From Candidatus Gastranaerophilales bacterium (lineage in GTDB: Bacteria; Cyanobacteriota; Vampirovibrionia; Gastranaerophilales; Gastranaerophilaceae): 64,000 bases of DNA. The notes under the pieces are model-generated. The model did no database searches. It was not told where the DNA came from and was given only the letters and a program-made list of their open reading frames with translations. Position numbers and translations under genes: made by a program. Positions 3,890 through 17,393 of this stretch are shown here, one piece after another. The DNA lies in assembly GCA_944322855.1 (NCBI GenBank), contig CALUQG010000002.1, forward strand, positions 1-64,000, read 5' to 3'. Position 1 is the first letter of the stretch. Each line of letters starts with the position of its first letter.

Positions 3890-6800
3890 TTAGTTTTCGG
3901 CTTTTTTGCAGACTATACCTTTTTTGGTAGCTTCTATTACCTGCAAAATAACTTTGTCGAGTTCTTTCATTTCTTTTTGTTTTTCAGGTGATTGTTTTTG
4001 CTTCCATTCCTCGAACATTTTTATAAAATCTTCTCGCTGGATTATGCAGTCACCTGTACCGACTTTGCTTGCATATTTTTTTGTGAATTCTCTGTTGAAA
4101 TCTTCATAAACCTCTGTAATCGCATCAGAAACAACCTGTGCATTTTTGAGGATTACATCTATGTCTTTATTGATATTTGCTTTGTCTTCTTCAGAGATTA
4201 CCCACATACCGTTCATTGATTTTTTGCCGAAATGTTTACCCTGTCCCATCAGGACAACCGCCTGAGAAGCCATATCTGTAGCCATTTGCATGTCGCTTGT
4301 AATACCCCAGCTTCCGTCCTGACTGTAAAATCTGTGTTCGCAAGAATTACCGCCAAAATCAAGAACTATTTCTGAGAAAATACGTTCAAATGAATATTCT
4401 CCATTCTCCATATCAGATGTGTGGACACATCCTCCGTACCAACCTCTCGGGTCAAGTGTAATAAAACTGAGCTTTCCTGCTCTGTGCCAAGGTTTTCCAA
4501 GCGTATTTGCAAGATTTTCCATGACTGTTGCGTTCAAAGCATGTCCGCATTCATGTGATGCAATCATTTCTTTTTCATAAAGAGGATCTTCTTTACTTGC
4601 AGGTCTGCCTGTGGTTAATTGAAGCAGAGCTTCTGTAAAGTCGCCTTTTTCTATTAATTTATGCTTTCTTTCTCTTGCTACATTTTTGGCTTTGTCAAGC
4701 AAGGTCAGAATTTCAATATAAGATGCGTGTTCAGTGAGCATGTTTATGTGTTTTTTTATCTCAGTTTTTTCCTGCTCATTTCCGGCAAGTTTTATTCCTT
4801 TTTTCTTAATATAGTAATCTATAATTTCTTCTCTGGCTTTTGGGTTGTATCCCGGAGACTCCACTTCTATTTCATCAATAAATTTAAAAGATTTTGTAGT
4901 TGCTTCGCCTATATATTTTGAATCACTCATAGAGCCCATAATTATTATATTAAGTCCTTGTTCCTGAGCCTTGTTCATTTCTCTGATAAGTTGAGACATT
5001 GCTTTTTCGTGGTATTCAGAGACCATTTCTCCGTATGAAAAATACTCAAAGTTTTCAATAAACAAAACAGCAGATTTTGACGGATTTGTTTCCGCTTGAG
5101 ATTTGACTATGGAGAAAAGTTTTTTCATAGATGCTTCCGGACTGAGAATACCGCCGCCAAATAAATCAACATCTTTTGTACCAAAATCAACGGCATTGAT
5201 TTCTATATACGGAGTTTTTGCCTCACCTGCAATTGCCTGTGCTGTATATTTCCTTCCTGCACCGACTGAACCATCTTGAGAATATATTATAAATCCTTTT
5301 GTACCGATTGATTTGTCTTTTATTCTGTCTACAATTGATTTTGCTTCTTTTTTTGTAGAGGGGGAACCAACCATGTCTTTGAGTTTTATTCCTGTATCAA
5401 AAACTATTTTGATTGCGCTGTCATTTTCGACGGGTTTAAAAATTTCTTTTGCTTCTTTTACATAGTTTTGAACATCTGATACATTAATTCTGTCTTTGTC
5501 AATATAATATGCAGAGACAAGATCCATTACTTTCTGTGCTTTTTCCGGATAGTTCCCTTTGAGCTGATTTGCTGCTTCTACGCATTTGTCAATTGCGCCT
5601 GCTGAAAATGGTTTTTTAATTTTTTCAATTAATTTCGGCTGCTCTTTAAACATTTTTTTTGTCTGGTTCATATTCATCAAAGGCATTGATATTTCACCAA
5701 AATCGCCGAAAAGTTTTTGCAAACCTTTGTCATTGCTTTCTTTGTAGTATGTATCTTTATCTGCAACCATTACAAATTTTACATTTTTAGGCGCATTTAT
5801 AAATGTTTCTATATTTAGATTGTCAATAGCAAGTGTATTCAAGTCACTGTCCATTATAGACATTATCATTACATAATTTTTATTTTTGTTTTTATTTTTT
5901 CCGAATTCATGTAACTTGTTTTTTATGTAGTTGTTATCAAGTTCTCCATTATCGTTAAAATTCACAATTTCTGTATTGTCTTTTGTCAAATTCCCAAAAC
6001 CGCTGGTGCTGTTTTCAAATACATGCAAAAAACTGTTTATAAGATATGAAGGAGATAAATCTTTGTCATGCAGAATTACCATATTAGTACCTACTGCGAG
6101 GTTTTTCCAGATGTTTTGGGCTTTATCATCATAAAAAGACAGATGAATTCTTTTTGATAAAGGCTTTGTATCAATTTGAATTTGGTCTTTCAACGCTGTA
6201 CGAAAAGGTATTACTATTTTCTTTTTTATCTGATCGTTGTTAGGGAAAATAGCTGCATCAAAAATTGTTGCATCATGTACAAGCCCGTCACCGCCCATGT
6301 CTTCTTCATTGTCTTGTTTGTATAGACTATAGATATCGTTTAGAAAATCTTTTGAAAATTCAAGTTTTTTATTTTTAATATTTGCACTATTAGTTGTTTT
6401 AGGCATTTTAAGCAGTTCTTCATCCAAAATAGAAATTTCTTCTTCTATAATCTTTTTTACTTTATTTCTTTTTTCCTGTTCTTTAAAAACATTTTTTCCG
6501 AGTATATCTTCAAAAATATCTTTTGTACTGAAAGAGGATTCGTCTCCGTATGAAATTTCTCCGGAATTAAGCTGATCTATATAATTGTTTACACTTTCAA
6601 GACCTGTACGCAGTACATGTATCTGATTTATTTCTTTGTGATTATATTTTTGTGCCAGTTTGCGAGAGTCATTAAGAAGTTTTTCTCCATAGTATGAAAC
6701 ATTATTTTCTATCTCATTCATTTTAGCTTTTTCGGATAATATTCTTCCCCTTTGAGACGGCTTTTCATCGTAGTCATCAAAGTCCATTTCGTCTTTTTTA

Positions 6801-6964
6801 CTTCCAAAACTTACAAAATAACTGTGTAACAGCCGGGAAGATAAAACAGGCATATTATTGTCTTTTGGCTGTTGTTCCTGTGGCTGTGCAGTTTGTGTTT
6901 CTTTTTTTGATGCAGTATAAGATGTCTTATTTGTAACCAGACCTGAGCCAATTTTTTGTATCAT
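3890..6964 (-). CDS. FtsH-like M41 metalloprotease with degenerate ATPase modules
   Basis: The 1024-residue protein has no membrane segment. Residues about 300-500 look like a ClpA/B D1-type AAA module without Walker motifs. From about 530 there is an FtsH-like AAA domain (KLKDMVG, then the nucleotide region 564-574) in which the P-loop reads DGSVGAGRKYT instead of GPPGTGKT, Walker B reads FIENFE (632-640) instead of DE, and the arginine-finger segment GRFDR is replaced (ATTKSFKFIDE). The peptidase part is intact: HECGH at 804-808 and the third zinc ligand Asp891 in GITSDMQMATD, matching FtsH. FtsH normally needs ATP to unfold and thread membrane proteins, so this is likely an ATP-independent or scaffolded soluble relative. 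The start has AAAGGA upstream. It is about 400 residues longer than FtsH. Confidence 0.85.
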   Translation of the reverse strand: MIQKIGSGLVTNKTSYTASKKETQTAQPQEQQPKDNNMPVLSSRLLHSYFVSFGSKKDEMDFDDYDEKPSQRGRILSEKAKMNEIENNVSYYGEKLLNDSRKLAQKYNHKEINQIHVLRTGLESVNNYIDQLNSGEISYGDESSFSTKDIFEDILGKNVFKEQEKRNKVKKIIEEEISILDEELLKMPKTTNSANIKNKKLEFSKDFLNDIYSLYKQDNEEDMGGDGLVHDATIFDAAIFPNNDQIKKKIVIPFRTALKDQIQIDTKPLSKRIHLSFYDDKAQNIWKNLAVGTNMVILHDKDLSPSYLINSFLHVFENSTSGFGNLTKDNTEIVNFNDNGELDNNYIKNKLHEFGKNKNKNKNYVMIMSIMDSDLNTLAIDNLNIETFINAPKNVKFVMVADKDTYYKESNDKGLQKLFGDFGEISMPLMNMNQTKKMFKEQPKLIEKIKKPFSAGAIDKCVEAANQLKGNYPEKAQKVMDLVSAYYIDKDRINVSDVQNYVKEAKEIFKPVENDSAIKIVFDTGIKLKDMVGSPSTKKEAKSIVDRIKDKSIGTKGFIIYSQDGSVGAGRKYTAQAIAGEAKTPYIEINAVDFGTKDVDLFGGGILSPEASMKKLFSIVKSQAETNPSKSAVLFIENFEYFSYGEMVSEYHEKAMSQLIREMNKAQEQGLNIIIMGSMSDSKYIGEATTKSFKFIDEIEVESPGYNPKAREEIIDYYIKKKGIKLAGNEQEKTEIKKHINMLTEHASYIEILTLLDKAKNVARERKHKLIEKGDFTEALLQLTTGRPASKEDPLYEKEMIASHECGHALNATVMENLANTLGKPWHRAGKLSFITLDPRGWYGGCVHTSDMENGEYSFERIFSEIVLDFGGNSCEHRFYSQDGSWGITSDMQMATDMASQAVVLMGQGKHFGKKSMNGMWVISEEDKANINKDIDVILKNAQVVSDAITEVYEDFNREFTKKYASKVGTGDCIIQREDFIKMFEEWKQKQSPEKQKEMKELDKVILQVIEATKKGIVCKKAEN

Positions 6965-16892: not shown

Positions 16893-17393
16893 CTACGCTT
16901 TCAAACTTTCTGTGTATGCCAGATGCTCTTGTGCAAACATTTCGCCCAGATCATCTACCGGTCGTTTAAGTAAATTATTTACACTGTATTGATTATTGAA
17001 TTTTGAAGCGATAGATTCAGTCAAACCTTTAAAATCAAGTTTGATTTCAGTATTTTTAGCAAATTCCCATGAATTTACAATATTATCTTTAATTTGCTTA
17101 CCAAAAGAAATAATTGAGTTTACTCTAGAGCGGAAAGCTTCGTTGAATGAATTCATAGAACCAACAACAGCGCTTGCTACCATTTTAGATTTGTTAGTCA
17201 TTTTTGCAAAAGGATTTGTGCTTGCAGAAGCTTCAGTAGCTTCTTTAGCTTTTGATGATTCAAATACATCTGCAGCCAGAACATTTCCTTTAAAGTTAAT
17301 ACCGAACGGGTTAGAATGAACTTCCTGTCTTTCTTCTTTTGACATAGGCTTGAACATTCCGAATTTTGTTTGTGTAATTTTTAAGTTATCCAT
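16893..17393 (-). CDS. Uncharacterised protein (166 aa) with NPFGINFKGN motif
   Basis: I do not recognise the family. Residues 28-45 contain NPFGINFKGNVLAADVF, then a Ser/Ala/Lys-rich linker, and from about residue 68 an amphipathic helical region (VASAVVGSMNSFNEAFRSRV) through the end. No signal peptide or membrane segment is visible. GGAAGG sits five bases upstream of the ATG. It is followed closely by the HEAT-like gene, so the two products may act together. A similar short N-terminal phrase (VSFGSK) occurs in the FtsH-like protein of this window. Confidence 0.7.
   Translation of the reverse strand: MDNLKITQTKFGMFKPMSKEERQEVHSNPFGINFKGNVLAADVFESSKAKEATEASASTNPFAKMTNKSKMVASAVVGSMNSFNEAFRSRVNSIISFGKQIKDNIVNSWEFAKNTEIKLDFKGLTESIASKFNNQYSVNNLLKRPVDDLGEMFAQEHLAYTESLKA

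Follow-up and report, generated by a model that had tools for sequence, protein, structure and literature searches.

Reduced relatives of AAA+ proteases and the present locus

FtsH is regarded by definition as an ATP-dependent and membrane-bound protease, its M41 peptidase normally relies on ATP-driven threading, and we know of no canonical FtsH that has been shown to function well without it. The known 'pseudo' versions of FtsH, termed FtsHi, have lost the protease and kept the motor (PMC8197885). The chloroplast protein VIRESCENT3 (VIR3) of plants has been described as an FtsH-related metalloprotease with an HEXXH motif but no ATP-binding domain (PMC9166295); thus, related ATPase-free HEXXH proteins exist. 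Among Lon proteases, the hexameric LonC (MtaLonC) has no ATPase activity, having lost the Walker A and B motifs, the sensors and the arginine finger; it degrades unfolded but not folded proteins in an ATP-free manner and still binds nucleotide (PMC3391209).

The analyzed window, i.e., the whole stretch of 64,000 nucleotides from a Candidatus Gastranaerophilales genome, encodes a 1024-aa protein (3890..6964, minus strand) that can be compared with each of these systems. Similarly to LonC, it has the architecture of an AAA+ protease, with degenerate ATPase motifs beside an intact protease site (PMC3391209), the combination that defines the LonC-like class in sequence; however, LonC carries the Lon Ser/Lys peptidase of unrelated fold and has no Clp N and D1 modules, whereas the peptidase here is an M41 zinc enzyme. 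We regard LonC as the closest functional precedent, by analogy and not by homology of the protease. As in FtsH, an AAA domain is followed by M41 with the same fold and a zinc site comprising HExxH and the third Asp ligand (TIGR01241, E=1.6e-23). However, the protein lacks the N-terminal transmembrane anchor, the Walker A Lys, the Walker B Glu, the arginine fingers (SRH) and the aromatic-hydrophobic-Gly motif of pore loop 1, carries ClpC N and D1 modules ahead of the FtsH part, and scores 83.4 bits against the cut-off of 600 for the NCBIfam TIGR01241 equivalog. The plant FtsHi and Ycf2-FtsHi proteins are likewise FtsH family members that lost one of two activities, but they are its mirror image, since they lose HExxH whereas the protein described here loses the ATPase motifs (PMC8197885). 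VIR3 differs in that AAA is absent rather than kept as a pseudo-AAA domain, and in being a plastid lamella protein (PMC9166295).

In the non-preprint literature searched, we found no report of a Melainabacterial FtsH that is soluble or ATPase-dead. ATP-independent AAA-fold proteases are already known from Lon, and the protein is in kind a variant of these; within the literature searched, it is new for FtsH/M41, and its ClpC fusion is also new. In a family of cyanobacteria-related gut bacteria, a whole clade reverses the FtsHi pattern; its protein is soluble and includes the half of ClpC that receives substrates.

Gene and domain architecture

The protease gene is a single open frame on the minus strand, with its 5' end at position 6964 and its stop at 3890, and the plus strand of the same interval is full of stops; all features below lie on the minus strand. 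From the N- to the C-terminus, the protein consists of a disordered tail, a ClpC-type N-domain, a ClpC-type D1 module without a P-loop, an FtsH AAA domain and M41, and is thus a ClpC N+D1 unit fused onto an FtsH AAA+M41 unit. The AlphaFold2 model based on 41 orthologues has a mean pLDDT of 81.8, with residues 1-74 (6743..6964) predicted to be disordered (pLDDT <50, mean column conservation 0.24). A 19-residue hydropathy scan of the 1024-aa protein detected no stretch hydrophobic enough for a membrane helix, the highest value being 0.88 versus 2.88 in the FtsH of the same genome, in agreement with the original prediction that the FtsH membrane anchor is missing.

The N-terminal half includes a ClpC-type N-domain with two Clp_N-like repeats (residues 75-263, 6176..6742), which is missing from the original description, and a ClpC D1-like AAA module (residues 265-515, 5420..6172), which had been described as Clp D1-like without Walker motifs. 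Both assignments are supported by profiles and structures. The profile of residues 72-200 matched the ClpC N-domain in PDB across both repeats (E=1.7e-9), and that of residues 262-522 matched ClpC D1 (E=3.9e-11). Residues 74-516 modelled alone reached a pLDDT of 90.6 and a pTM of 0.86, and all structural matches listed for this isolated model by Foldseek and VIA are Hsp100 proteins, with Z scores of 18-19 in VIA for the D1 module against the D1 of Hsp104 and ClpC1. Thus, residues 75-515 are similar in sequence and predicted fold to the N-domain and D1 of ClpC, ClpA and ClpB. In contrast to ClpC and other Hsp100 proteins, which have two functional AAA modules with Walker motifs in D1 and a Clp D2, the protein lacks the D1 P-loop and Clp D2, and its second module is of the FtsH type and fused to M41. 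Reading of phospho-arginine by the Clp N-domain found no support, as the position of the 'TEH' glutamate of ClpC (E32 in B. subtilis) is occupied here by Ile115 and is not conserved.

Degenerate ATPase and conserved zinc site

The FtsH-type pseudo-ATPase module (residues 520-790, 4595..5407) is recognized by Pfam AAA above its curated cut-off (residues 565-689, E=1.6e-8), and from residue 526 onward the best PDB sequence relatives are FtsH structures. The fold is kept, as residues 524-985 match apo-FtsH (3kds_F) in VIA with a Z score of 25.6 over 414 residues at an rmsd of 3.4. The motifs of the ATP site, however, are altered as had been predicted. The P-loop SQDGSVGAGRK (residues 562-572, 5249..5281), with invariant G568, G570 and R571, is 3-5 residues longer than usual and carries GRK (G570-R571-K572) in place of GKT; all 37 orthologues have Arg in place of the Walker Lys (position 571), and Thr or Ser never follows it. 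Misalignment was rejected, since the invariant glycines are shared with intact relatives and place R571 opposite their Walker Lys. In the Walker B segment VLFIEN (residues 633-638, 5051..5068), E637-N638 replaces DE, and the catalytic Glu is gone from all 37 orthologues (Asn in 33, Lys in 2, His in 2). The position of the arginine-finger segment RPGRFD, predicted to be absent, is occupied by TKSFKFI (residues 690-696, 4877..4897), and Lys stands at the two finger positions in 29 and 27 of the 37 orthologues, respectively. In the pore-loop-1 region (residues 590-609, 5138..5197), the aromatic-V-G motif is lost and an insertion is present; YVG or FVG occurs in the listed intact rows of the alignment and in none of the listed dead rows. 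By comparison, all ATPase positions hold the canonical residue in 14 of 14 intact relatives. ATPase activity has very probably been lost in the 1024-aa protein. Nevertheless, the pocket changes are conservative (K->R, R->K, D->E) and strictly kept, thus the aligned sequences leave room for hydrolysis-free nucleotide binding or residual activity. We also noted that residues 571, 637, 691 and 694 of the pseudo-pocket underwent charge-preserving exchange, the Walker Lys to Arg and both fingers mostly to Lys.

The M41 zinc peptidase domain (residues 795-1018, 3911..4582) matches Pfam Peptidase_M41 at residues 797-942 with E=2.6e-10 and 40.9 bits versus a gathering score of 29.9, and all 41 orthologues match this model. 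The HECGH motif (residues 804-808, 4541..4555), which contains zinc ligands and the catalytic Glu, and the third ligand Asp891 (4292..4294) are both present, as originally reported, and are invariant in 37/37 orthologues; none of the groups aligned shows variation at H804, E805, H808, E876 or D891. The peptidase thus has the family profile and HExxH of M41 and is presumably live. Conservation of the zinc ligands differs from that of the Walker residues: HExxH and Asp are kept in 37 of 37 orthologues, versus none for the Walker Lys and none for the catalytic Glu. Among 88 distinct family members fetched, all have HExxH, and the Walker position is Arg in 70 and Lys in 18. The original predictions of a soluble AAA-fold M41 protease, of ATPase motifs lost from both modules and of a retained zinc site are supported, and the loss is conserved in every orthologue.

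Distribution and evolutionary history

All named homologues come from metagenome-assembled Candidatus Gastranaerophilales genomes. In the family, 51 of 146 genomes have a match at 1e-20, with the dead type counted in 48 of them, and presence is patchy (18 of 41 genera); the dead type extends to a second family of the order (G151 and G156). The observation is confirmed and holds more widely than originally claimed; with 37 distinct orthologues in the alignment and Arg shared by 70 distinct members at the Walker position, it reflects neither chance nor sequencing error.

In a phylogenetic tree built without the motif columns, the dead clade, the active paralogues of ~760 aa and a partly degenerate group (L102, L105 and L106) each have an SH-aLRT support of 100. 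The latter group of M41 proteins, from another family of the order, has an intact Walker A motif, the Walker B Glu replaced by Asp, and no finger pair. Complete ATPases are found among the tree neighbours L071, L100, L101, L103 and L104. A canonical P-loop in homologues would have spoken against the original prediction; it never occurs in the orthologous clade (Arg in 37/37), but it is carried by sister groups of the same order, namely these five proteins and the ~760-aa paralogues. Since same-order relatives keep a complete ATPase, the ATPase loss is derived and not a misread motif. The dead and partly degenerate groups are joined at a support of 45 only, so that either one or two losses fit the tree.

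The D1 P-loop is absent in every member examined, including those whose second ATPase is intact, thus the D1 motor was most simply lost first. The Clp N-domain is confined to the ATPase-dead clade, and D1-like matches outside the order are at the ordinary Clp level only. We propose that the protein arose within Gastranaerophilales and that its ancestor was a soluble relative of FtsH powered by ATP: the FtsH AAA+M41 unit would first have been joined to a ClpC-type D1, the ClpC N-domain would have been added later, and ATP hydrolysis would have been lost after the ClpC modules were joined. Within this one order, relatives range from intact through partly to fully degenerate; they form a natural series from an ATP-driven to a passive degradation machine, and the same series bears on the question of whether M41 works motor-free.

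The pseudo-AAA domain is maintained by selection. Per-domain dN/dS values for 13 pairs are mostly 0.02-0.08 for pseudo-AAA and 0.04-0.18 for M41, i.e., pseudo-AAA evolves no faster than the peptidase; values are higher in the divergent pair L064/L067 (0.22 for AAA and 0.11 for M41). For the altered motifs themselves dN/dS is near zero, with few sites per motif and several pairs near saturation. The altered pocket is under selection, and the low dN/dS of pseudo-AAA indicates that the domain is in use and not decaying. A pseudogene or frameshift was ruled out by full-length frames in dozens of genomes together with the low dN/dS.

Proposed function and alternative explanations

We consider it fairly probable that the protein is a soluble ATP-independent zinc protease, presumably ring-forming, for unfolded proteins or peptides. 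The AAA-fold layers would form a static scaffold, probably assembled as a hexameric ring, which gives the chamber around the M41 sites its shape and controls access to it; clients would be recruited through the Clp N-domain or via the tail at the N-terminus. Already unfolded polypeptides or peptides would enter passively and be cut at the HExxH/Asp zinc site, whereas folded proteins would be spared. By analogy with LonC, the AAA layers would act as a passive gate and scaffold and the Clp N-domain as a docking site. Speaking against this reading are the usual reliance of M41 in FtsH on ATP-driven threading and the conservatively altered, strictly kept pocket.

Decay into a pseudo-enzyme with no proteolytic role could account for the loss of motifs in several domains and for the patchy presence in 18 of 41 genera, but it is highly improbable in view of the open frames retained at full length by dozens of genomes, the invariant zinc site, and the low dN/dS seen across all folded domains in almost every pair. 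An unlikely explanation is that the protein is a regulatory or structural subunit powered by an ATPase-competent partner, which might be the membrane FtsH, the ~760-aa soluble M41 paralogue, or ClpC via D1 or the N-domain. The genome of the window (98% complete) has two M41 genes, for a canonical 620-aa FtsH and the 1024-aa protein, as well as two ClpP, ClpC and ClpB, the latter two being frames of 841 and 879 aa named from length and Clp_N content only. FtsH, ClpC and the two ClpP could thus supply partners, hetero-hexamers are known in the FtsH family (PMC9020784), and the strictly conserved pseudo-pocket could serve as an interface. However, the protein has neither a membrane anchor nor arginine fingers to complete the ATP site of a neighbour, and no neighbour gene is conserved across 30 loci of at least 7 kb, so that operon context gives no functional hint. 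The active soluble paralogue (e.g., L072 from G043:C3, with a complete ATPase, another N-terminal region and no anchor) was found in 10 of the 146 genomes of the family, the D1-bearing L071 being one of its representatives; it is absent from the genome of the window and missing from 42 of 48 dead-type carriers (present in 6). Thus, self-sufficiency is favoured and the dead-motor protein probably needs no active soluble paralogue. The original suggestion of an assembly partner of true FtsH lacks support on the same grounds of anchor, fingers and paralogue.

It is possible, and compatible with a passive protease, that the altered pocket (GxGR[RK], E-N, and Lys for the fingers) binds a nucleotide or anion unhydrolysed, thereby switching or locking the ring. 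This refinement is consistent with the invariance of R571, G568 and G570 and with the strong constraint on the pocket, which few parts of the protein exceed, and the ATPase-less LonC still binds nucleotide (PMC3391209); on the other hand, both the Walker A Lys and the Thr/Ser are lost, and the loop is 3-5 residues longer. The Walker B Asp is mostly replaced by Glu and the catalytic Glu mostly by Asn. Rather doubtful is a more specific version, in which charge-preserving swaps turned the pocket into a conserved site that binds a ligand without hydrolysing it and gates a soluble protease of hybrid ClpC-FtsH make-up; if true, it would represent an energy-free, ligand-switched protease class derived from two ATP-driven machines. 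Assignment to a defence system was rejected, as PADLOC gave no match. The genome of the window also contains a 465-aa frame with six Clp_N repeats and no AAA part (G000:C16:19624-20937; L144 and L147-L149).

N-terminal motif

Within the tail of the 1024-aa protein, the segment VSFGSKK (residues 51-57, 6794..6814) contains an FxG motif with a nearly invariant F53. The pattern [VIL][NST]F[KSTGR][GA] (e.g., VSFGS and INFKG) is found near the N-terminus of other ORFs, usually behind a low-complexity stretch; besides the protease, it occurs in a second ORF of the window (16893-17393, minus strand) and in L042, L050, L051, L062 and L098. It is present in the first 80 aa of 9 out of 209 unrelated ORF clusters, where shuffling expects 1.4 (maximum 5 in 200), this tight pattern having been picked after examples were seen and a looser one showing no enrichment. 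The motif possibly represents a lineage-specific targeting tag. In the controls, it was found in 0 of 209 C-termini and in 1 of 130 mid-protein segments.
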